Positions 6,875 to 21,767 of a DNA stretch of 22,579 bases are shown here, piece by piece. Under the pieces are notes generated by a model. It was not told the origin of the DNA, made no database searches, and saw only the letters and a program-made list of their open reading frames with translations. Position 1 is the stretch's first letter, and every line of letters begins with the position of its first letter. The position numbers and the translations under genes are program-made. This DNA is from Chloroflexota bacterium (GTDB taxonomy: Bacteria; Chloroflexota; Limnocylindria; Limnocylindrales; CSP1-4), in NCBI GenBank assembly GCA_021789355.1, contig JAJYJR010000024.1, positions 1 to 22,579 of the forward strand. The letters run 5' to 3'.

Positions 6875-7184
6875 CGCGGACCTTAGGATAGGGCAGGGGC
6901 GATAGCGGCAACCGCCGGCAGTCGAGGCGTCCTTCGTCTGCACGAGGCGGCGGTTGCGCCTGGCGCCGAGTATTGAAGCCCGCGAGCCGCCGTGCGTCTC
7001 GCGTGCATGCACCAAGCCGCGTGGCCGGAGGGACGCATCGCCGTGCAGACCGGGACGTCGGAGAGCGGGGTGGCGGTCCCATGCCCTGACGTCACACCGA
7101 TCGTGACCGCGTGTTGAACTCTGAGGGCGGCTCGCACGTCTGGACAGGTGAGGGACACGTCGTCCCGGCCAGCGAGGGGCCAAG
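6875..7184. other. Divergent intergenic region
   Basis: About 310 bases between the minus-strand membrane protein and the first sigma gene. The right end carries the ECF-type promoter described separately. The rest contains only GC-driven open frames and no recognisable RNA gene, repeat array or mobile-element end. Confidence 0.4.
7114..7140 (+). promoter_or_regulatory. ECF-type promoter of the first sigma operon
   Basis: TTGAACT, 16 bases, then CGTC (followed by TGG). The -35 GAAC and -10 CGTC with 17 bases between them fit the known ECF pattern. The same motif occurs before three other genes in this window (11495, 14991 and, on the minus strand, 17131). The predicted transcript start is near 7148, giving a leader of about 38 bases with GAGGGG before the GTG start. 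Confidence 0.65.
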
Positions 7185-7988
7185 GTGGTGGCGCAGGTGA
7201 TCGAGCGTCCAACGCCGGACCGAACGCCTCGGTCGATCGCGCGCGCTCCCTCGGGACCGGCGGCACCGTCGGTCGTCGAGCCGGTGCCTGCGCGACCGGT
7301 GGAGCTGGCGCATCCGAGCGCCATCGGCCGAGCGGAACTGGCCGACCGCATCGAGCGGCGCCTCCCGTCGAGCTACCGCCTGGCGGCGCTGGTCCTGGGC
7401 GACCGCGTGGAAGCGGAGGACGCGACCCACGAGGCCATCCTGTCGGCCTGGGCCCGAGCCCGGACGCTGCGCAACCTCGCGGCGATCGACGCCTGGTTCG
7501 ACCGGATCCTCGTCAACGTCTGCCGCGACCGCCTGCGTCACCACCGGATCCTGCGGTTCGTCGACCTCGAGGCGGCGGCTGATGCTCCTGCGTCCGACGA
7601 GCTCGCGGAGGTGGGGCGGCGCGACGAGATCGCGCACGCCTTCGGCCGCCTCAACGCCGACCAGAAGCTCGCCATGGTGCTCCAGCACTGGGGGGACCGG
7701 TCGACCGACGAGGTCGCCGCAGCGACGGGCACTCGGGCGGGGACGGTCAAGTCCCGGCTGCACTGCGCGCTGCTGGCCATGCGCGAGGCCCTCGACGACG
7801 CCGGCGCCTTCGACGCGCCCGAGGGGAGGACTATCCGATGGCCGGCCAGCGACGGACCGACGACGCGGGACGCGAGCGGAGGCTCCGGGCGTGGCTCGCA
7901 CGCGAGGTGCCCGAACAGGTCCCGGAGTCGCTCTCGGAAACGCTCACCCACCTGCGCACGGGAACCGAGCCCGTGGTCGAGCCCGTGA
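7185..7988 (+). CDS. ECF RNA polymerase sigma factor 1, with a C-terminal run-on
   Basis: A 267-residue sigma-70 family protein. Region 2 spans about 51-118 (SSYRLAALVLGDRVEAEDATHEAI, then DAWFDRILVNVCRDRLR), where core binding and -10 recognition lie. Region 4 spans about 148-202 (LNADQKLAMVLQHW, then GTRAGTVKSRLHCALLAMREAL), containing the -35-binding helix-turn-helix. The start is GTG 7185 or the adjacent GTG 7188; GAGGGG at 7174-7179 suits the second slightly better. The last 49 residues are Arg/Ser-rich and lie wholly inside the next gene in another frame. The usual ATGA stop/start overlap is here ATGG, so the frame reads through to 7988. An ECF-type promoter lies upstream, suggesting autoregulation. 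Confidence 0.85.
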   Translation: MVAQVIERPTPDRTPRSIARAPSGPAAPSVVEPVPARPVELAHPSAIGRAELADRIERRLPSSYRLAALVLGDRVEAEDATHEAILSAWARARTLRNLAAIDAWFDRILVNVCRDRLRHHRILRFVDLEAAADAPASDELAEVGRRDEIAHAFGRLNADQKLAMVLQHWGDRSTDEVAAATGTRAGTVKSRLHCALLAMREALDDAGAFDAPEGRTIRWPASDGPTTRDASGGSGRGSHARCPNRSRSRSRKRSPTCAREPSPWSSP

Positions 7989-10195
7989 CCAGGTCGCCTC
8001 GCCGGTCACGATCCGGCCGCCGGCTGCCGGCGGGCCTCGCGGCCGCGGTCGTCCTCGCTCTGGCCGCGGTCGGGGCGGGACTGCTCGCGATGGCCACGCA
8101 GCGGCAGCCCGGGGCATCGCTGCCCGCATCACCCGCAGCACTGCCGGCATCTCCGTCATCCGCGCCGGCCGCCGGCCTCGCGGTCGGGGCGCCCGTGCTC
8201 GTCGGCCAGCAGACGGGCATCAAGGCCGCGCTCGCCGATACCTCGAGCGGGCCGGTGGTCGCCGTCTACCCGGCCCACGTCGCGGGGCCGATGCCGACCC
8301 GCCTCGCGTCGCCGTGGCCGGCCGGAGCGACGTGCCCCCCGAGCCCGGTCGGCGTCGTTGGCGCCGCGGGCGTCGCGTGGACCATGTCCGACCAGTCGAT
8401 CCTCCTGCTCGCAGGCGACTCGTCCGCGCCGGGGCCGGTCGGGATTGGCTTCACCCGCGACTGCGCGAGCACGACCGCCCTCGCGCCGGCCTCCGCAACC
8501 GCTTGGACGGTGAGCCGCGCCCCGTCGGTGGTCTCGGGAGGGGTGTGGTTCCTGGCGATGAAGCCCGGCGACCCGCAGACCGTGGTCGCCTGGTCGCCCG
8601 CGACGGGCCAGCGCGCCCAGAAGGGTGGCTTCCTGTCGTGGACCACGGATGGCGGCCGGACGTGGACGAGCGGCCAGACCGATCCGGCGATCCCGGCCGG
8701 GTGGGACTGGGCCGGCCGCCTGTGGCACGTCCTCCCCGGGCGGATCGAGTGGTCGTTCGACCCGGCCTCCGGCTTCCAGCCGACCTCGTCGATCCCGACC
8801 GACGTGACCTGGGATCCCACGACCGGCCAGGTTCCGCCACTCATGGCCGCCGGCGTCTTCCGCGACCGGGTCCTGCTCGGCGTCCGGGACGGCGCGCTCG
8901 AGTCGGTCGCGACGGACGGCTCGGGGATCGCCCGGCTGCCGATCGCGGCGTGGCGCATCTCGGCCGGATCGCGGTTCGTCGCCATCGAGGGCCGCGACCT
9001 CGCGACCGGCGCCGCGACAATGGCCGTCTCGTCCGACGGCGTCCATTTCGTGACGCGCGCGCTGCCCGACGAGTTCGCGCAGGCGCCGACCGACTCGGTC
9101 GCCCTGCTCGCGCTCGACGACCGGGTCCTGGTGACCGACTGGCCGCAGGCCGCAAACCCGGCCGACCAGGTCATCCATGTCTGGTCGGTGCCGGTGACCG
9201 GAGCCCCGCCGCCACCGGCCCTGCCAAGCCCTGCGACTCCGCCCTCTCCCACGCCCGCCGTGGCGATCCTCCAGCCCTCGACGCTCGCGTTCTGGGACCA
9301 GCAGCGGGGCCTCGTCGCCGGCTCGTACGGCGTGCCCGGAGAGACCGGCGTGGGGCGGATCCTGCGGACGACCGACGGCGGCCGCACGTGGACGTCCGTC
9401 GACTCGCCGCCGGATCCGGTGAGTGAGCTGTGGGTGACCGGCTCGAGCGACGCCTGGGCACTCTCGAGCTGCCCGGATGGCACGACGCCGTGCCGTTACC
9501 TCCTGAGCAGCACCGACGGCGGGACGACGTGGACCTCGGCCCCGACGAACCTGGCGTGGGTGAGCTTCGGCACGGGGGTCGACGGCTGGGGCGTCGGGGC
9601 CGCGCCGGGCGTGATGGCCAGCGGGCTGTACCGAACGAGCAACGGCGGGTCGACTTGGACGTCGGTTCGGTCACCGTGTCAGGGCTCGACGGCCGGACCG
9701 CTGCGGGCGGTCGCGTTCCGTGCGGCGACGTCCGGCATGGCCGTCTGCGCGGCCACGCTTGGCGCGGGTGGCGAGTTCCACAGCGTCCTCTCGACCTCGG
9801 ACGGTGGCGTCACGTGGCAGGTTCGGGCGTCCGTGGCTCCGGCACCCTCACAGCAGACCGGCAGAGTGCCCTCCGTCGGCTCGCTCCAGTACGGGGGCTA
9901 CATCCAGGGCGTGGTGCTCGCCTCGGACGGCACGGCCTGGATGTGGGGTGGGCGGATGGACGTGCTGCTGAGCACCGACGATGGTGTCACGTGGAGCGGG
10001 GGTGGCCTGACCAGCGACGGGGGCGGGATGGCGGAGGCCTGGCCGCTCGACGCAGGGCATGGGTTCGCGCTCCTGTGGGACCCGAACCGCCAGGCGACGC
10101 TGCTCGAGGCGACGGGGGACGGCGCGCATACATGGCAGGAGCGCATGGCGTGGCCGCTCACCGGGTTGTCGCCGGCGGGCCCGGGACAGCCGTAG
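7838..10195 (+). CDS. Membrane-anchored anti-sigma-like protein with an extracellular Asp-box propeller
   Basis: A 785-residue protein with a strong GGGGAGGA seven bases before ATG 7838. Residues 1-65 are cytoplasmic, charged and helical, with no HxxxCxxC zinc motif. A single membrane helix fills about 66-86. An Ala/Pro/Ser linker follows, then a very large outside domain. Asp-box (BNR) motifs of the type S/T-x-D-G-G-x-T-W occur near 269, 511, 557, 600, 652 and 712, with a weaker one near 758. A Pro-rich hinge at about 456-474 divides the ectodomain into an N-terminal half with one clear box and a C-terminal propeller with most of them. Coupling to an ECF sigma gene suggests that it holds the sigma factor and senses an envelope signal. 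That role is inferred; glycosidase activity is not indicated. Confidence 0.8.
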   Translation: MAGQRRTDDAGRERRLRAWLAREVPEQVPESLSETLTHLRTGTEPVVEPVTRSPRRSRSGRRLPAGLAAAVVLALAAVGAGLLAMATQRQPGASLPASPAALPASPSSAPAAGLAVGAPVLVGQQTGIKAALADTSSGPVVAVYPAHVAGPMPTRLASPWPAGATCPPSPVGVVGAAGVAWTMSDQSILLLAGDSSAPGPVGIGFTRDCASTTALAPASATAWTVSRAPSVVSGGVWFLAMKPGDPQTVVAWSPATGQRAQKGGFLSWTTDGGRTWTSGQTDPAIPAGWDWAGRLWHVLPGRIEWSFDPASGFQPTSSIPTDVTWDPTTGQVPPLMAAGVFRDRVLLGVRDGALESVATDGSGIARLPIAAWRISAGSRFVAIEGRDLATGAATMAVSSDGVHFVTRALPDEFAQAPTDSVALLALDDRVLVTDWPQAANPADQVIHVWSVPVTGAPPPPALPSPATPPSPTPAVAILQPSTLAFWDQQRGLVAGSYGVPGETGVGRILRTTDGGRTWTSVDSPPDPVSELWVTGSSDAWALSSCPDGTTPCRYLLSSTDGGTTWTSAPTNLAWVSFGTGVDGWGVGAAPGVMASGLYRTSNGGSTWTSVRSPCQGSTAGPLRAVAFRAATSGMAVCAATLGAGGEFHSVLSTSDGGVTWQVRASVAPAPSQQTGRVPSVGSLQYGGYIQGVVLASDGTAWMWGGRMDVLLSTDDGVTWSGGGLTSDGGGMAEAWPLDAGHGFALLWDPNRQATLLEATGDGAHTWQERMAWPLTGLSPAGPGQP

Positions 10196-10249
10196 CCGAG
10201 CCGGAGAGATGGATCCTTGCGTCTTGGTGGAAGGACCGGAGCGTCTGGG

Positions 10250-11428
10250 ATGAAACCTCGAATCCGCATGCTGCCGCTCCGGCAGTTCGCCGTGCTGCCG
10301 GCCGCGCTCGCGCTCCTTGCTGCCTGCGCCTCGGCTCCGTCGATCGGATCTCCCTCGGAGGCGTCGCCTCCCGCGCCGTCGGCGTCATCCGCTCCGACGC
10401 GGATCCAGGTCCCGTCACCGGCGCCCGTCGGGTCGGCGCCTGCGGGCTCGGAGCCCGTCGGGTCGGCGCCCGCGGTGACGTCCGTCTCGCCCCCGATCGC
10501 GGTGCCCGCGGGGACCCGGACCGACGCGATCGACGGAGTGGCGTTCTTCAGCGCGGAGCGCGGTCTCCTCGTGGGCGGGACCGGTGGCGAGGGCGGCCTC
10601 GTGGCGACCGGCGAGGGGCTCGTGTGGCGCACCGAGGACGGTGGCGCGCACTGGGCGAAGGCGACGATGTCGCCAGGTCCGTTGCGCTCCGTGGCGGTGG
10701 TCGGCAGCTCGCTCGCCTGGACGAGCTCGGTGTGCGGGTCGGGCGACCCGTCTGGTTGTCGGCCACAGCTGCTCGCAAGCCGGGACGGCGGTGTGACCTG
10801 GCGGACGATCGCAGACCACGGCTTCGTCGCCCTCGACTTCCTCGACGCGACCCGCGGCTGGGGCCTGGAGGCCACCCTCCGGCCGTCGCTCCAGATGACC
10901 AGCGACGGTGGCCGCAGGTGGTCTCCTGCGCCGTCGCAGCCCTGCCCGACCTACCCGCCGCTGGCGGCCGACGGGGTGAGCTTCACCGACCGGGTGCATG
11001 GCTGGGTCGCCTGCTCGGGGTTGGGCGAGGCTGGCAACTCGGACAAGGCGGTCGTTGCCACCGACGATGGCGGCCGCACCTGGCACGTCGTGGCCAGCGC
11101 CTATCCGGTGCAGGGCTATCCGGCGCCGACCACTGGCTCGATCCCGGAGCTCGACGCGCTGTGGGGGATCGCGATGCGGACGAACGGCACCGGCCTCATC
11201 TGGATGCCCCTCGGCGGCGCCGACGGGACCTGGCTCACGGCCGACAGTGGCCGCACCTGGGCCGCGATCCAGATGGGCGCCGAGCCCGGTGCCTTCGGGG
11301 CGGTCGCCGGATGGCTGGTCGACGACGGGACCTGGTTCCTCGTCCTCGACGCGACGCCGCCCGCCGAGCAGCTCGTCCGCAGCACCGACGCCGGCCGAAC
11401 GTGGGAGGCGATCCGGACGCCCGGCTGA
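10250..11428 (+). CDS. Asp-box beta-propeller lipoprotein
   Basis: A 392-residue lipoprotein. A signal peptide (MKPRIRMLPLRQ, then hydrophobic) ends in the lipobox LAAC, with the lipidated cysteine at about residue 26. A Ser/Pro/Ala linker follows, containing two copies of PVGSAPA. The rest is a six-bladed-looking propeller whose blades carry RTEDGGAHW, ASRDGGVTW, TSDGGRRW, TDDGGRTW, TADSGRTW and STDAGRTW. I start at ATG 10250 with GGAG eight bases upstream. TTG 10217 also has GGAGAG at good spacing and would add 11 residues before the signal peptide. It sits between two sigma/partner operons whose partners carry similar propellers, so a shared ligand or interaction outside the membrane is plausible. 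Confidence 0.8.
   Translation: MKPRIRMLPLRQFAVLPAALALLAACASAPSIGSPSEASPPAPSASSAPTRIQVPSPAPVGSAPAGSEPVGSAPAVTSVSPPIAVPAGTRTDAIDGVAFFSAERGLLVGGTGGEGGLVATGEGLVWRTEDGGAHWAKATMSPGPLRSVAVVGSSLAWTSSVCGSGDPSGCRPQLLASRDGGVTWRTIADHGFVALDFLDATRGWGLEATLRPSLQMTSDGGRRWSPAPSQPCPTYPPLAADGVSFTDRVHGWVACSGLGEAGNSDKAVVATDDGGRTWHVVASAYPVQGYPAPTTGSIPELDALWGIAMRTNGTGLIWMPLGGADGTWLTADSGRTWAAIQMGAEPGAFGAVAGWLVDDGTWFLVLDATPPAEQLVRSTDAGRTWEAIRTPG
10423..10470 (+). repeat. Two-copy direct repeat inside the lipoprotein linker
   Basis: GCCCGTCGGGTCGGCGCC occurs at 10423-10440 and again at 10453-10470, a 30-base period. It encodes the repeated PVGSAPA in the flexible linker after the lipobox. This is consistent with slippage-driven length variation of a spacer. 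Confidence 0.7.
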
Positions 11429-11494
11429 TCCGGCGCCCTCGTGGCGGCCGGCCTGGGTCGATCCGCCGGACGCGCGATGGCGGCCCCGCGAAGA

Positions 11495-11521
11495 TGGAAC
11501 GATCGCCCGTCGCCGTTCGTC
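11495..11521 (+). promoter_or_regulatory. ECF-type promoter of the second sigma operon
   Basis: TGGAACG, 16 bases, then CGTC (followed by AGG). It has the same GAAC-N17-CGTC arrangement as the promoter at 7114. The CGTC ends eight bases before ATG 11530, so transcription probably begins at or next to the start codon. Confidence 0.65.
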
Positions 11522-11529
11522 AGGACGGC

Positions 11530-12099
11530 ATGGTCGGGGCGGAGGAGCTGGAGAGGGCCGCGCTGGTGGACCGCACGTCCGGGGAGATGCTGACCGGATC
11601 GCGGAAGGCGTTCGAGCGCCTCACGGCGGCGCGGCTCGACCGAGCGTATCGGCTCGCGGGCATCGTCCTCGGCGATCCATCCGAGGCGCAGGACGCGGTG
11701 CACGATGCCGCCCTGCGGGCGTGGCGCCACTGGGGAGACCTGCGCGACTCGCAACGGTTCGACGCATGGTTCGACCGCATCGTCGTGAACGTTTGCCGGG
11801 ACCGGTCGAGGCGCCGCCGCCTCTCGCCCGTGAGTCTCGCCACGCCGATCGACCTGCCCGGCCCCGACGCCTCGGCGACGCTGACCGAGCGCGACGCCCT
11901 GGATCGTGCGCTCGCGGACCTCCCGGCTGAACAGCGGCTGGTGCTCGCGCTCCGGTTCGTCGAGGACCTGACGGTCCCGGAGATTGCCGCGCGGACGGGC
12001 GTGCCCGACGGCACGGTGAAGAGCCGGCTGCACCGCGGGCTGTCGGCGCTCCGGGCGAGCTATGACGCGGCCCAGCGGACGGCGCGTGTGGCGCGATGA
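11530..12099 (+). CDS. ECF RNA polymerase sigma factor 2
   Basis: A 189-residue ECF sigma factor of normal length. Region 2 is at about 34-96 (LDRAYRLAGIVLGDPSEAQD, then DAWFDRIVVNVCRDRSRRRR). Region 4 is at about 120-178 (LPAEQRLVLALRF, then EDLTVPEIAARTGVPDGTVKSRLHRGL, a complete helix-turn-helix). I chose ATG 11530 over the in-frame ATG 11494 because the ECF promoter elements occupy 11495-11521. With this start the message would be leaderless. The stop overlaps the ATG of the membrane partner in an ATGA. Region 2 is clearly related to that of the sigma factors at 7185 and 16670. Confidence 0.9.
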   Translation: MVGAEELERAALVDRTSGEMLTGSRKAFERLTAARLDRAYRLAGIVLGDPSEAQDAVHDAALRAWRHWGDLRDSQRFDAWFDRIVVNVCRDRSRRRRLSPVSLATPIDLPGPDASATLTERDALDRALADLPAEQRLVLALRFVEDLTVPEIAARTGVPDGTVKSRLHRGLSALRASYDAAQRTARVAR

Positions 12100-14237
12100 A
12101 GGACAACCATGGCGCCGCGCCGAGCAACCGCGGCGAAGACTGGAGTGGAGCGATGAACGGCGACCAGGCGCACAGCGCCGTCCCGACCGAAAGGGCGCGG
12201 GGTGACGACCCAGGTGCTGGCGACGAGCGTTTCGAGCGGGCAGTGCGCGATGCGCTCCTCCGGCGCAGTCCCGGCGAGGCGCCGGTGTCGCTCCGCGCGA
12301 ACGTGCGGGCCATCCCCGACGCGGACGCGGGGCGGCCGCGTCGGTCCATCGGCCGGTTAGGGATGCGACTCGTCGCCGCCCTCGCCGCTGCGGCGGTGGT
12401 CGTGGTGGCGGCCGGGATCCTCGTGGCGACGAGGCCACCGGCCGAGACTGGAACCGTGCCAGTCGCATCGTCCCGCCCGTCCGCCTCGACACTGATCCCG
12501 TCTCCGACGCCCAGCTCTCCGACGCCAGGCCCATCCGTGGAGCCCACCCCGTACGAGCCCGCAGGCCCCCCGTTCGTGTTCGTCGGAGGCCAGTGGGGCA
12601 CCCTCGATTGGTCCGCGCGCTCCACGTTCCCGGATCCCTCGGGACCCGAGGATCTGGTGTTCTTCTTTGACCAGGTCTACGCCACCGGGCAGGTACAGGT
12701 CGGCTCGTCGACCGAGACCGCGTTCTGGAGCTCCGTCGACGGCCTCAGCTGGACCGAGCTCCGCAGCGGCGATCCGGCGTTCGCCGGGGCAGGGCCGCTG
12801 ACGCTCGTCGCGACGACGTCCGGTCTCGTCGCGTGGGGCCAGGACGGCGAGCCCGCCTGCTCGGCCCCTGGCGCGGGCAAGACGTGCGGCCCGGTGCCGC
12901 AGGCGATCTGGACGTCGCCCGACGGGGTGTCTTGGACGCGGGCCGTGGGACCCGCCGACCTCTCCGGGGCCACCATCAGCAGCATTGCCACGGCACCCTC
13001 GGGACTCGTGGCTGTGGGCCAGACCGCTTCGGGCAGGGCTGCCGTCTGGACCTCGGCGAGCGGTGCCCGCTGGCAGCGCGAGTCGCTCGGGGCGCTGTTC
13101 ACCGACGCGCACCTCTACTCCGTGCGCGCGGCCGGACCGGGCTTCGTCATCGGCGGCGGCACGGGCTCCCAGCAGGTCAGCGTGACGGGCGGACCCGCGT
13201 CGACGGTCCCCGTGACTGCCGCGACTTGGTGGTCCGCCGACGGGCGCAGCTGGACGAAGGGGACGGTCGAGCGGTCGGCAGCGGGGGGCGCCTACGTGTC
13301 CGGGATCTTCGTCGGCGAGGACGGCCTCGTCGCCGTCGGTTCCGCAAGTGGCGGCAAAGAGGGGACCGCCTGGACGTCGACGGACGGGCAGACCTGGACC
13401 CCGATCGCCGCGGCCGTTGGAGGTCCCGGGTCGCCGCCGCCAGGTGGGTCAGTGCTGCCCTCCTACACGATCGCCGACGACGGGGTCCACCTGATCGCGA
13501 CGAGCTACGGGGACCGTGACGCGGTGGTCTGGTGGAGCTCGACCGATGGCAGGAACTGGCAGCGGCTCGCCGAATCTGGAGCCACCGGCACGAGCCCGGT
13601 GTTCCAGGGCGACGCCGCGCAGGCGGATCGCTGGATGTCCCGCAGCATCGTTGTCCCCGACGGCGTCCTCGTGATCGGCGCGAGCGCCGGGGACCCGCCG
13701 CTCACCCGCGTGTGGCGGGCGACGGCCAGCGCGTCGACAGCGGTGGCGTCGCCCTCGCAGCCGGTCTCGGCTCCGGTGTGCACGACCGGGCAGCTCCGGA
13801 TCTCGACGGTCGAAACGGGCGCGGCGGCGGGAACCGTTGGCGGCTGGCTCAGGTTCGTGAACGTCGGCAGCGCCGCCTGCTCCATGCGGGGGTGGCCCAC
13901 CGTCGTCGCCATCACGGCATCAGGATCCGAGACCCGCGCGAAGGACGCGCCGGCCGTGCTCGACTCGCCGCCGCTTCAGGCGGCCCCGACCGTGACCCTG
14001 GATCCCGGACTGGACGCCTTTGCCGCGTTCGCCGGCGGCGACAACCCGGCCGGTCCGGCAAGCACCTGCCCGCCGCCGTACTCGACGCTCCGGGTCACGC
14101 CGCCGAGCGCGTCGGGGTCAACCACGGTGTCCGCCTGGCTGGCCGGCCTGGGTGCCAACCTGCCGGCTTGCGTCAGCATCGAGGTCACGATGGTCCTGCC
14201 GCGCTCGCTGGTTCCCTTCGTCCCGCTGACGCCATAG
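12096..14237 (+). CDS. Membrane-anchored anti-sigma-like protein with propeller and DUF4232-like domains
   Basis: A 713-residue protein. The cytoplasmic segment (about 1-88) contains DERFERAVRDALLRRSPGEAP, a likely sigma-contact helix without zinc ligands. One membrane helix lies at about 89-111, then a Pro/Ser/Thr linker to about 158. A propeller spans about 160-545 with degenerate Asp-boxes at 211 (WSSVDGLSW), 272, 318, 378, 426 and 479. The C-terminal domain (about 562-705) starts CTTGQLRIS, continues WLRFVNVGSAACSMRGWPTV and ends in a cysteine-bearing strand, the pattern of DUF4232. The ATGA overlap with the sigma gene supports ATG 12096, but ATG 12153 has a better GGAG seven bases upstream. 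The likely role is an envelope-sensing sigma regulator, by inference from the operon. Confidence 0.8.
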   Translation: MKDNHGAAPSNRGEDWSGAMNGDQAHSAVPTERARGDDPGAGDERFERAVRDALLRRSPGEAPVSLRANVRAIPDADAGRPRRSIGRLGMRLVAALAAAAVVVVAAGILVATRPPAETGTVPVASSRPSASTLIPSPTPSSPTPGPSVEPTPYEPAGPPFVFVGGQWGTLDWSARSTFPDPSGPEDLVFFFDQVYATGQVQVGSSTETAFWSSVDGLSWTELRSGDPAFAGAGPLTLVATTSGLVAWGQDGEPACSAPGAGKTCGPVPQAIWTSPDGVSWTRAVGPADLSGATISSIATAPSGLVAVGQTASGRAAVWTSASGARWQRESLGALFTDAHLYSVRAAGPGFVIGGGTGSQQVSVTGGPASTVPVTAATWWSADGRSWTKGTVERSAAGGAYVSGIFVGEDGLVAVGSASGGKEGTAWTSTDGQTWTPIAAAVGGPGSPPPGGSVLPSYTIADDGVHLIATSYGDRDAVVWWSSTDGRNWQRLAESGATGTSPVFQGDAAQADRWMSRSIVVPDGVLVIGASAGDPPLTRVWRATASASTAVASPSQPVSAPVCTTGQLRISTVETGAAAGTVGGWLRFVNVGSAACSMRGWPTVVAITASGSETRAKDAPAVLDSPPLQAAPTVTLDPGLDAFAAFAGGDNPAGPASTCPPPYSTLRVTPPSASGSTTVSAWLAGLGANLPACVSIEVTMVLPRSLVPFVPLTP

Positions 14238-14288
14238 CCGCCCCCGGCCCGCGGTCCGCAGCGCGGAGGTCGCGCGCATACTCGCCCC

Positions 14289-14942
14289 GTGAACGTCTCG
14301 TCTCGGCTGCCGGGACTGGTCGCGCTCGTGATCGGCGTCGTGGCCGCCCTGCTCATGCTCGTCGGGCTCGGCGTGCCCGTCGGAGCCGGCCTGCTCGTTG
14401 GGCTGGTCCTCGGATTGGTCGTCCTCCTCGGCGTCGCCGCTCGCCGGCCTGCAGGCGCCGTCTCGTTTCTGACCGCGCGGCCGGCGGGACACGAGCCGGA
14501 CCACGAGCTGATCATGCGGCACGGCCGGGAACAGATGGCCGTCAGTGCGGTCGACGCAAGCGACCTGCGACGCGTGCTGCCGTTCGCGACCGCCGTTGAG
14601 GGTGCGAGTATCCGGGTCGAGCTGGTTGCCCTCGAGCTGCGAGCGGATGGCGGGATCGCCATCCTGGTCGCACGCGCCCGACCGCCGGCCTCGATGGGCC
14701 ACTTCCTCGAAGTTGCGGCCGCAGACGACGTCGGGACGGCATACGGCGCCGCGGGCCAGAGTTCGGGCGGTCCCAATCCCGGCGTGGGCCGGATCGAGCT
14801 GCGCTTCGCGCCCGCGCCGCCACCGGCCGCGCGCCGCCTCACTCTCCGCATTGACGCGTTCCTCGACCCGTTCCCGGCTCCCGCCCGTCGCCTCGCCGGG
14901 CCGTGGGTCTTCGAGCTGGACCTGCCCGGCGACGAGAGCTGA
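14289..14942 (+). CDS. Membrane-anchored protein with a beta-rich tail
   Basis: A 217-residue protein starting at GTG 14289. Two closely spaced membrane helices occupy about 7-27 and 30-50 (LVALVIGVVAALLMLVGLGV, then GLLVGLVLGLVVLLGVAA). The remaining 165 residues are soluble and strand-rich, for example ASIRVELVALELRADGGIAILVARA and GRIELRFAP, with a flexible Gly/Pro loop between them. If the helices form a hairpin, the tail is cytoplasmic. CATACT lies seven bases before the GTG and there is no Shine-Dalgarno, so the message may be leaderless. No family is recognised. It lies between a sigma operon and the duplicated-domain gene. Confidence 0.6.
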   Translation: MNVSSRLPGLVALVIGVVAALLMLVGLGVPVGAGLLVGLVLGLVVLLGVAARRPAGAVSFLTARPAGHEPDHELIMRHGREQMAVSAVDASDLRRVLPFATAVEGASIRVELVALELRADGGIAILVARARPPASMGHFLEVAAADDVGTAYGAAGQSSGGPNPGVGRIELRFAPAPPPAARRLTLRIDAFLDPFPAPARRLAGPWVFELDLPGDES

Positions 14943-14990
14943 CGAGCGGGACGTGCTCGACGCGGTTGCGGCCCGGCTTTCGCTGCGAGC

Positions 14991-15017
14991 GGGAACCGCC
15001 GAGCCGGCTCTGACGTC
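14991..15017 (+). promoter_or_regulatory. ECF-type promoter before the duplicated-domain gene
   Basis: GGGAACC, 16 bases, then CGTC, ending 12 bases before ATG 15030. It has the same GAAC-N17-CGTC arrangement as the three sigma promoters. GGAACC is also the classical -35 of stress ECF sigma factors. It implies that the downstream gene belongs to the same regulon. Confidence 0.6.
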
Positions 15018-15029
15018 GAGACGGGCGCG

Positions 15030-16673
15030 ATGACCGACGAGCGCGACCAGGGCCGGGTTCGGGGCGCCGCCCTGCGCGCGCGCCGCTCGCCGCGCCTGGC
15101 GCTCGCGGCCATGGTGCTGGTGCTGGCGGTCGGGGGCGCCTTCACGGCGCAGGCGACCGGAATCGTCTCGCAACGGCCTCCCGCAACTCCGGCGCCCATC
15201 GCCGTCTTCGACGCAGCGCAGCTGCGGGCGGCGATCGAGCAGGAGCGGGCGGGCGGGATCGAGCCGCGAGACGTGATCGGGGATGTCGCCATCGACCCGG
15301 CCCGACGGACACCGCCGCTCGACCGGGAGTGCGTCCCGCTCGGGCAGTGCACCGTGATCGGGACGCTCGCAGGCTTCGACGCGACGCTCGGCACGGTCAC
15401 GGTTCGTGCGGAGGACCAGCGGGTCCCGCCGCCAACCGATGCCGCCTCCCTGCAGGCGCCGGTCGCGGTGCGCCTTTCCCCGTCCGGCCCGATCGAGTTC
15501 CTGGGCCACGTCAACCTCGGGACGGCAACTCGCGCGTTCGACGTCGCCGGCGCGCTCGCCCTGGGGAAGATGGCGGCGACCGGCGACGTGATCGCCGCGA
15601 CCGGGTGGCTCGTCGGCGTCGAGGGTTTCTCGTGCGGCCCCGTTCCGATGCCGGGCCCGGTTGTCCCGGCGCCGTTCTCCTGCCAGCTGCCAGAGTTCCT
15701 GACCGCGACGCCGATCCGCCCGGTCTCGGGCGGCGGCAACAGCTTCGCGATGTCGGCCCCGACGGGAGCGGTCCAGCTCCAGATGGGCGCCTACCAGGAG
15801 TTCGCCCCCCAGCCGTCGTTCGACGGCGTCAACGACGTGCCGCGACTCGGCACGTACCTGCTGCGCATGGTGGCCATCAACCAGTCGAACTGCGAGCACT
15901 GCCGGGGCTGGCTGGCGGTCGGGCGGCTCGACGCATCGGCGGTGCCCGCGTCCCCGGCTCCGTCCGGCTACCAGCTGCTCGTGCGCTCGCCCGACGAGCT
16001 CGCGCTGGCGCTCGCGCAGGACCGGCCGGCCATCGTCGGTCAGATCGAGTTCGTCGACGGCCGGATCTTCCCCGGCACCGCGAGCGGGTGCACCGGTTCC
16101 GGGCCGTGCTCGCTCGGCGTGCTCGGGGGCACGTCGGAGCAGGTCGTCGCGACGCCCTTCGTTGTCTCGCAGTCCGTCCCCGGCGACGATGCCCAGGTCT
16201 GGGGCGTGCTGGCGCTGCTCGTCCGCCCGACCGGCCTCGAGTACCTCGGCGAAGGCGGCGTCCCGCTCCCGCTGTCCGAGCTCGCCGACCCGTTGATCAC
16301 GAACGGCATCCCGCTCCAGGTCCACCCGGTCGAGGCCTGGCTCGTCGGCGAGGGGGCCGTGCCGTGCGCGTCGTTTGTGCACACCCCACCGGCGGACACG
16401 CCGTTCGACACCTGCGGCGGCTCGTGGCTCACGGCCTCGTCGCAGCAGCCTGTCCAACGCAACGGAGCAGGCTTCTCACACGTCGTGCCGCGCGGCGCAA
16501 TCAGGGTCCAGCCCGGCGCCTACGACGAGTTCGCTCCGTCACCCGCGCCCGAGCCCGACGGCGTCGGGTTCGTGCCGCGCGAGGGGACCTACCTCGTCCG
16601 GATGGTCACGTGGACGCCGCCCGGTGGCAAGGCGGAGATGGGCTGGCAGGTGGTCGCGCGGCTGGCGCCCTAG
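15030..16673 (+). CDS. Membrane-anchored extracytoplasmic protein with an internal tandem duplication
   Basis: A 547-residue protein: a short basic cytoplasmic start (about 1-22), one membrane helix (about 23-43), a Pro linker, then two homologous units at about 57-301 and 313-546. Matching landmarks are CVPLGQC with GSGPC, WLVGVEGFSC with WLVGEGAVPC, QMGAYQEFAP with QPGAYDEFAP, and VPRLGTYLLRMV with VPREGTYLVRMV. Cysteine pairs recur in both halves and suggest disulfides outside the cell. No catalytic motif is recognised. It is controlled by an ECF-type promoter and resembles the other sigma partners in topology, but the only nearby unpaired sigma gene converges on it. Its TAG shares CTAG with that gene's stop. 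It may be an envelope sensor or a regulon target. Confidence 0.75.
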   Translation: MTDERDQGRVRGAALRARRSPRLALAAMVLVLAVGGAFTAQATGIVSQRPPATPAPIAVFDAAQLRAAIEQERAGGIEPRDVIGDVAIDPARRTPPLDRECVPLGQCTVIGTLAGFDATLGTVTVRAEDQRVPPPTDAASLQAPVAVRLSPSGPIEFLGHVNLGTATRAFDVAGALALGKMAATGDVIAATGWLVGVEGFSCGPVPMPGPVVPAPFSCQLPEFLTATPIRPVSGGGNSFAMSAPTGAVQLQMGAYQEFAPQPSFDGVNDVPRLGTYLLRMVAINQSNCEHCRGWLAVGRLDASAVPASPAPSGYQLLVRSPDELALALAQDRPAIVGQIEFVDGRIFPGTASGCTGSGPCSLGVLGGTSEQVVATPFVVSQSVPGDDAQVWGVLALLVRPTGLEYLGEGGVPLPLSELADPLITNGIPLQVHPVEAWLVGEGAVPCASFVHTPPADTPFDTCGGSWLTASSQQPVQRNGAGFSHVVPRGAIRVQPGAYDEFAPSPAPEPDGVGFVPREGTYLVRMVTWTPPGGKAEMGWQVVARLAP

Positions 16674-17095
16674 TGGAGGACGACGACTTCGCGCTGCTCG
16701 GCCGGCAGATCGGCTAGCACCCGTCGCAGCGCGTCCCGCTCGGCCAGCCGGGTCGCCGGGAAGGCCGCCACCGGCTCCGGTGCGTCGTCGATCGACAGCG
16801 TCCGGACACGCCGCCGGCGCCGAAGGCGATCCCGGCATCCGTTCACGAGGATGCGCTGGAACCAAGGACCGAACCGCTCGGCGTCCCGCAGGCTCCCGAA
16901 GCGATCCCACGCCTGGACCGCCGCGTCCTGGACGGCGTCCTGCGCCTCAACCTCGCTGCCGAGGAGGACCGCGGCGAGCCGGTACGAGGCGGCGAGCTGC
17001 CGATCCGCGAGCCGGGCGAACGCCTCGGCACGAAGCGCCTCTCGGCTCCGGGCCGCCGCCCCGGGCTCCGTCACTGCCGCCTCCCGTCCGAACAT
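16670..17095 (-). pseudogene. ECF sigma factor 3, truncated before region 4.2
   Basis: 141 residues from ATG 17095. Region 2 is intact (LAASYRLAAVLLGSEVEAQDAV, then FGPWFQRILVNGCRDRLRRRRR) and the region 4 entry RLAERDALRRVLADLPAEQREVVVLH is present. The protein stops there, about 50 residues before the helix-turn-helix ends (compare LPAEQRLVLALRFVEDLTVPEIA in the sigma factor at 11530). It therefore lacks -35 recognition. The stop lies in CTAG 16670-16673, which is also the stop of the converging gene; beyond it the strand is that gene's antisense. The promoter is intact and the coding part is undamaged, so truncation is recent or the short protein has a role. A sequence breakpoint or assembly join is the simplest explanation. 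Confidence 0.75.
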
Positions 17096-17104
17096 GCCGT
17101 TCCA

Positions 17105-17131
17105 GACGATGCAGCCCCCCGAATCGTTCGA
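17105..17131 (-). promoter_or_regulatory. ECF-type promoter of the truncated sigma gene
   Basis: Read on the minus strand: TCGAACG, 16 bases, then CGTC (followed by TGG), ending nine bases before ATG 17095. It matches the GAAC-N17-CGTC motif of the other two sigma operons, including the short gap to the start codon seen at 11530. Confidence 0.6.
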
Positions 17132-21189: not shown

Positions 21190-21216
21190 TGTCCGAAGTC
21201 GCCTGGGCTGTGCGTC
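21190..21216 (+). promoter_or_regulatory. Second-type ECF promoter before the fourth sigma gene
   Basis: TGTCCGA, 16 bases, then CGTC, ending eight bases before ATG 21225. It has the same -10 and spacing as the other ECF promoters here but a different -35. It matches TGTCCGG-N16-CGTT at 17284, suggesting that this sigma controls both itself and the transporter unit. Confidence 0.55.
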
Positions 21217-21224
21217 TTCAGGAC

Positions 21225-21767
21225 ATGAGCAGCGAGGCAGCCGTCGCGGACGTCGACCAGGCCGCGGTTGGTGTGCACGCCGCCGACGCCCTGGAGGTGC
21301 TCTACCTCACCCACCGGGAAGCTGTCTTCCGCTACCTCCGGGCGATCAGCCGCGACGAGGACGGCGCGCTCGACCTCACGGCGACGACATTCGAGCGCGC
21401 GTTTCGCGAGCTGCGTGCCGGGCGCGAACCCGGTATCGGGTGGCTGCTGCGAACCGCGCGGAACGCGGCGATCGATGCGGACCGGCGGGCTCGGACTGCG
21501 GCGCTCCTCCGTTGGCGATCTGCCGTGGTCGAGCCGTCCGCTCCGTCGCTCGAGGAGCGCGCGCTCGGGCTGGAACGGGCGGAGCGGGTTCGCGCCGCTC
21601 TGGCGCACCTGCCCGGACCCCAGCGCGACACCATCGCGCTGCGCTACACGACCGATCTGACCGTGCGAGAGATCGCCGACGTGATCGGCAAGAGCCCGAG
21701 TGCCACCCAGAAGCTGCTCGATCGTGGCCGCGTCCGCCTCAAGGAGGCGCTCCATGACCTCGCCTGA
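21225..21767 (+). CDS. ECF RNA polymerase sigma factor 4
   Basis: 180 residues from ATG 21225. Region 2 is at about 22-90 (LEVLYLTHREAVFRYLRAI, TTFERAFRELRAG, GIGWLLRTARNAAIDADRR). Region 4 is at about 118-178 (RVRAALAHLPGPQRDTIALRY, then DLTVREIADVIGKSPSATQKLLDRGRVRLKEAL, a complete helix-turn-helix). It lacks the VNVCRDR motif shared by the other three sigma factors and so belongs to a different ECF group, in keeping with its different promoter motif. The ATG lies eight bases after the -10 element, so the message may be leaderless. The stop overlaps its membrane partner by 14 bases. Confidence 0.9.
   Translation: MSSEAAVADVDQAAVGVHAADALEVLYLTHREAVFRYLRAISRDEDGALDLTATTFERAFRELRAGREPGIGWLLRTARNAAIDADRRARTAALLRWRSAVVEPSAPSLEERALGLERAERVRAALAHLPGPQRDTIALRYTTDLTVREIADVIGKSPSATQKLLDRGRVRLKEALHDLA

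Follow-up and report, generated by a model that had tools for sequence, protein, structure and literature searches.

What reads four copies of one two-part sequence, GAAC followed by 17 bases and CGTC (GAAC-N17-CGTC), in a single stretch of Chloroflexota DNA? The stretch, referred to here as the window, comprises 22,579 nucleotides of contig JAJYJR010000024.1 (assembly GCA_021789355.1) with a guanine-cytosine content of 72.9%, and its near relatives are uncultured Chloroflexota, with some protein matches from Candidatus Limnocylindrales. Three of the copies precede genes for extracytoplasmic function (ECF) sigma factors, here called sigma1, sigma2 and sigma3, and the fourth precedes gene 15030, which encodes a membrane-anchored protein. 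An initial annotation of this DNA took the copies for ECF-type promoters and proposed that the loci form one shared or cross-talking regulon. Our analysis suggests that the sites are very probably autoregulatory promoters, with GAAC as -35 and CGTC as -10 box, read by the ECF sigmas of one paralog-rich Chloroflexota clade.

Placement, spacing and clade association of the sites

A motif search of the window found the four copies at exactly the positions and on the strands that the initial annotation had reported:

7116..7140, + strand: promoter-like site of sigma1, GAAC-N17-CGTC; both boxes kept in the ortholog locus L210
11497..11521, + strand: promoter-like site of sigma2, GAAC-N17-CGTC; L093 keeps the boxes at N18 spacing
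14993..15017, + strand: promoter-like site of gene 15030, GAAC-N17-CGTC; kept in L211
17105..17129, - strand: promoter-like site of sigma3, GAAC-N17-CGTC; kept in L151

The gap between CGTC and the start codon is 44 bases for sigma1 (GTG at 7185), 8 for sigma2 (ATG at 11530), 12 for gene 15030 and 9 for sigma3 (ATG at 17095, minus strand), a measured range of 8-44 where 8-50 had been claimed, and the reported continuation CGTCWGG is present at all three sigma sites. Three more copies, on which that annotation was silent, lie within genes on the minus strand (9052, 9800 and 15036). In total, GAAC-N16-18-CGTC occurs 8 times in the window against 4.3 expected from shuffles; the bare count is weakly unusual, because 5 of 100 shuffled windows reach 8. 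What is distinctive of the window sites is their placement ahead of starts. Across 1227 non-ECF genes from relatives, the rate of sites that end 0-50 bases upstream of the start is 0.15% of genes per spacing value (mean over spacings 8-30, leaving out 16-18), close to the earlier estimate of about 1 in 1000 per upstream region. Such a site is carried by 4 of the 23 called window genes (binomial P ~5e-8), a value that is post hoc because the spacing was taken from these same sites.

The independent test is not this P value but the spacing found ahead of ECF genes in relatives. We scanned 300 bases upstream of the sigma region 2 domain for GAAC-Nk-CGTC with k from 6 to 30. The first set came from stretches around PF08281 matches in six related uncultured Chloroflexota genomes, in which a profile built from sigma2 homologs identified 109 ECF genes with usable upstreams; these are partly non-independent, with near-identical copies common to genomes G002 and G003. 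Here k=17 gave 17 matches and k=18 gave 6, against 0 to 4 (mean 1.7) at every other k. The second set, 47 upstreams outside the first drawn from the best matches to sigma2, gene 15030 and sigma3, gave 25 at k=17 and 3 at k=18, and 0 to 3 (mean 0.8) elsewhere. The lone N17/N18 peak in both sets rules out chance as the whole explanation and bears out the claim that the sites are unlikely to be accidental. Read by eye, the extended motif is near ATT-GAAC-STTC and CGTC-TGGA.

The motif, taken as GAAC-N17-CGTC, N18-CGTC or N17-AGTC, was then placed on a quick maximum-likelihood tree of 113 ECF proteins, namely the 109 of the first set and the window's four. It is found in 34 of the 56 members of one clade (support 96), in 30 of the 45 members of the clade core (support 99) and in 1 of 57 proteins outside. 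Its distribution needs 15 label changes on the tree compared with 30 after shuffling, and none of 500 shuffles was as low. Sigma1, sigma2 and sigma3 are 3 of the 34 motif-bearing clade members. This association with a clade is what autoregulation predicts. The initial annotation was right that three sigma genes carry the motif, but it missed a fourth ECF gene in the window that lacks it, so that the score is three of four:

21225..21767, + strand: fourth ECF sigma gene, lacking GAAC at the right distance; outside the motif clade; negative control

At 21213-21224 this gene has CGTC 8 bases before its ATG with no GAAC at the right distance, and it may use another -35 box.

The orthologous upstream regions, one ortholog locus for each gene, keep both boxes for all four genes. 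By tblastn, the ortholog is 61% identical for sigma1 (L210), 83% for sigma2 (L093), 82% for sigma3 (L151) and 74% for gene 15030 (L211). Thus an AAC-type -35 and a CGT-type -10 box stand at a fixed spacing before the sigma genes and are kept in relatives, as expected of an autoregulatory ECF promoter, and the ECF-type reading of the initial annotation gains support from both this conservation and the tie to the clade of sigma1, sigma2 and sigma3.

Weighing the explanations

Several points weigh against reading the sites as promoters of the clade's own sigmas. An exact match is missing in 22 of the 56 clade members. The second set was selected by similarity to window proteins and, because it was drawn by similarity to sigma2, gene 15030 and sigma3, leans to their kin. 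In the ortholog comparisons, other placements of the same layout are fully kept too (7 of 111 for sigma1, 7 of 106 for sigma2 and 8 of 106 for sigma3); since the pairs are close and these placements are equally kept, the three sigma pairs alone prove little. Neither Pfam nor NCBIfam gave an anti-sigma family match over the cut-off. Finally, N17 is also raised in non-ECF genes, with 12 sites among 1227 genes against a mean of 1.9 per other spacing (0-50 bases before the start). Of these 12, four run into the coding end of an ECF gene and a fifth falls inside another called gene; from the remaining 7 we draw no wider non-ECF regulon.

In L112, L152, L172 and L192, GAAC-N17-CGTC stems from the coding end of an ECF gene before the next gene (ELFRG-stop in L112 and L172). 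That the motif can arise from ECF coding ends is a warning for genome-wide motif scans. In G002, a lipoprotein-like gene (L093 4119-4808, + strand) placed divergently to an ECF operon carries a GAAC-N17-CGTC site 10 bases ahead of its ATG and is a possible further target.

Could the boxes simply be paralogous upstream DNA inherited from one ancestor, without present function? Sigma1, sigma2 and sigma3 do belong to one clade, and sigma2 and sigma3 are alike around the site, for example in GAACGAT and GGC-ATG. We consider this most improbable, since the boxes recur at N17/N18 across distant paralogs although the spacers differ, and since the layout is also preserved in the ortholog of gene 15030, which does not encode a sigma. 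A shared regulon with cross-talk, as proposed initially, would have any active clade sigma fire all four promoters, so that several surface sensors would lead to one output. The same core does lie within 10 kb ahead of three clade sigmas and one non-sigma gene, and in one relative (G004) it stands ahead of as many as 10 of the ECF genes retrieved, nine of them in the clade, making cross-recognition possible; a published cross-talk map reports off-target activity between subgroups with similar promoters (PMC3817407). However, the -10 box begins with C in 26 and with A in 9 of 35 motif genes, and this base tracks sub-clades, with 5 changes on the tree against 8.1 after shuffling and none of 300 shuffles as low, which hints at insulation between paralogs. 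Moreover, 16 of the 22 clade members without an exact match apparently have GAAC at N17 or N18 while the -10 box or the spacing is altered, by our own reading of loose matches with no chance control. No single residue cleanly separated the sigmas with C from those with A in the -10 box. Cross-talk of this kind is therefore possible but, to our judgement, somewhat doubtful.

The site of gene 15030 could be a chance match while the sigma sites are real. It has no ATT before GAAC and no TGG after CGTC, its conservation rests on one ortholog locus, and such sites do turn up in non-ECF genes, part of them coding. Against this, the ortholog in G003 (L211) keeps GAAC-N17-CGTC while 7 of 17 spacer bases agree, the distance to the start is nearly equal (12 bases for gene 15030 and 11 for the ortholog), and just 1 of 106 placements of the same layout is as well kept. 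We thus regard a chance match as rather unlikely and gene 15030 as a plausible member of the set, as first suggested. A bolder proposal is a network with many inputs and one output, in which a cell would have as many as about ten sigma paralogs, each coupled to a large surface sensor of its own and acting on one largely leaderless promoter family, and in which freed ectodomains (gene 15030 with its own promoter and the adjoining BNR lipoprotein at 10217) would serve as decoys or buffers that tune the inputs; as a whole we hold it to be decidedly unlikely.

Operons, start codons and ectodomains around the sites

If the sites are autoregulatory promoters, each intact clade sigma would sit behind a copy readable by its own product, and release of the sigma from a membrane anti-sigma partner would switch on its own operon in a positive feedback. 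Gene 15030 would probably be co-induced as a surface protein, and sigma3 is probably decaying behind an intact promoter. The genes concerned are:

7185..7988, + strand: sigma1, ECF sigma factor with GTG start; PF04542 and PF08281 over cut-off; in the motif clade
7838..10195, + strand: putative anti-sigma 1; short cytoplasmic part, one transmembrane stretch, BNR-type ectodomain; role suggested by position
10217..11428, + strand: BNR-repeat lipoprotein-like gene, starting at either TTG 10217 or ATG 10250; shares 34% identity with the end of putative anti-sigma 1
11530..12099, + strand: sigma2, ECF sigma factor with ATG start; Pfam matches over cut-off; in the motif clade
12096..14237, + strand: putative anti-sigma 2; transmembrane stretch, ectodomain with DUF4232; role suggested by position
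15030..16673, + strand: gene 15030, membrane-anchored protein whose ectodomain is duplicated; in five other genomes, related ectodomains are encoded behind ECF genes
16670..17095, - strand: sigma3, ECF sigma factor with complete region 2 and shortened region 4; P0128 has this truncated form too

Sigma1 and sigma2 consist of regions 2 and 4 only, as ECF factors do, with PF04542 and PF08281 both over their cut-offs. The genes behind them, which may encode the anti-sigma partners, have no anti-sigma match in Pfam; in NCBIfam gene 7838 has a weak one (16.4 bits against a cut-off of 100) and gene 12096 has none. The frame of sigma1 extends 151 bases into the putative anti-sigma gene (7838-7988), whereas the L210 ortholog, at 217 residues, reaches its stop after an overlap of 4 bases; the window sigma1 seems to have lost that stop and gained a tail of about 50 residues.

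The description of sigma3 as a third ECF sigma gene holds in part, as most of region 4, which recognises the -35 box, is missing. Region 4 covers 22 of 54 profile positions (15 bits against a Pfam cut-off of 25.7), and the protein ends in EQREVVVLH-stop where its orthologs run on through region 4. P0128, a protein of 141 residues with one substitution relative to sigma3, is encoded on another contig (9041 bases). Since the same form occurs on a separate contig, the truncation is probably real and an assembly chimera is an unlikely cause. A sigma without region 4 should not read a -35 box, and the promoter of sigma3 would then be a relic or be read by another sigma. The stop codon of sigma3 overlaps that of gene 15030 on the opposite strand (16670-16673), and this convergence resembles a rearrangement joint.

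The short distance between -10 box and start codon bears on translation. In 33 of 61 motif-bearing ECF genes the first in-frame ATG or GTG follows the -10 box at 6-12 bases, compared with 21 of 263 places that have CGTC without GAAC, one rule being applied to both; at matched distance the counts are 31 of 55 and 13 of 73. About half of the clade genes with the motif thus have the -10 box 6-12 bases before the start codon, and with transcription starting 6-9 bases after that box their mRNAs would probably be leaderless. Sigma2, sigma3 and gene 15030 fit this layout, and sigma1 would have a 44-base leader.

Gene 15030 has no family match in Pfam or NCBIfam, and matches it at E 0.001 or better occur in 11 of 177 genomes. 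In five of these (G004, G013, G018, G021 and G054) the match lies behind a same-strand ECF gene, and the ECF gene has an upstream GAAC-N17-CGTC in all five. By eye, these five proteins have a longer cytoplasmic stretch followed by a transmembrane stretch. The N-terminus of gene 15030 is shorter than in L213, L214, L215, L216 and L217 (judged by eye and with no family model), and the cytoplasmic anti-sigma part seen in those proteins is absent from it; the G003 ortholog, P0247, P0250 and P0255 share the short N-terminus. In G003 an ECF gene and a 973-codon gene come first and the ortholog follows in third place, with its own site in the gap. From this comparison we infer that gene 15030 is a former anti-sigma ectodomain used alone, without the cytoplasmic part. 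The BNR lipoprotein-like gene at 10217 may be a second freed ectodomain; a search of the window found no GAAC-N17-CGTC site of its own. In G004 (C3:3783-4268; L118, L213), a motif-bearing ECF gene with one in-frame TAG is followed by a gene for a 15030-type membrane protein. The structure model of gene 15030 has a predicted local distance difference test score (pLDDT) of 79 and a predicted template modelling score (pTM) of 0.53. Foldseek with this model found nothing at E 0.001 or better; among the weak matches are several single-strand DNA-binding proteins, and we assign no fold because all matches are weak.

Known systems and meaning of the arrangement

The kind of arrangement is already known. 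The review PMC8103513 names AAC-type -35 and CGT-type -10 boxes, autoregulation and an anti-sigma partner as hallmarks, drawn from the ECFs that were studied first. The window set resembles these autoregulated operons in its box type, in its place before the sigma gene and in having a putative membrane anti-sigma gene next; it differs in a start spacing that suggests leaderless mRNA, in a non-sigma surface protein as target and in a truncated sigma gene, and its activity is predicted from sequence. Motif search ahead of sigma genes is an established route to ECF promoters, and ECF subgroups are thought to have similar promoters within them, according to PMC3817407. Our approach follows the same logic, an over-represented motif upstream of one subgroup's sigma genes; that study seeks promoters without cross-reaction between subgroups, whereas here many one-clade paralogs of one genome have a common core. 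The best NCBIfam match by E-value of sigma1, sigma2 and sigma3 is TIGR02983, the SigE family; because their scores (99.3, 127.7 and 80.1 bits) all fall below its curated cut-off of 141.55 bits, we do not file them in it. As for start layout, PMC3160421 lists leaderless genes for 4 of 12 Chloroflexi genomes, their boxes being of the Pribnow type. The -10 box stands directly ahead of the start codon there as here; that survey covers Pribnow-type boxes, whereas the window boxes are ECF-type.

Because the boxes and autoregulation are described ECF hallmarks, novelty is modest. In the open-licence PMC literature we found no paper on ECF promoters of this lineage by title or abstract; a Limnocylindria genome paper (PMC13212565) speaks of sigma factor counts. 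At mostly title and abstract level in the same literature, such details as this lineage, its leaderless layout, its paralog number and an ectodomain gene without a sigma were not found in print. A promoter signature for an ECF clade of an uncultured lineage would make targets predictable without cultures, and the clade provides a natural case for asking how, if at all, many sigma paralogs in the same cell are kept separate when their promoters are nearly identical.

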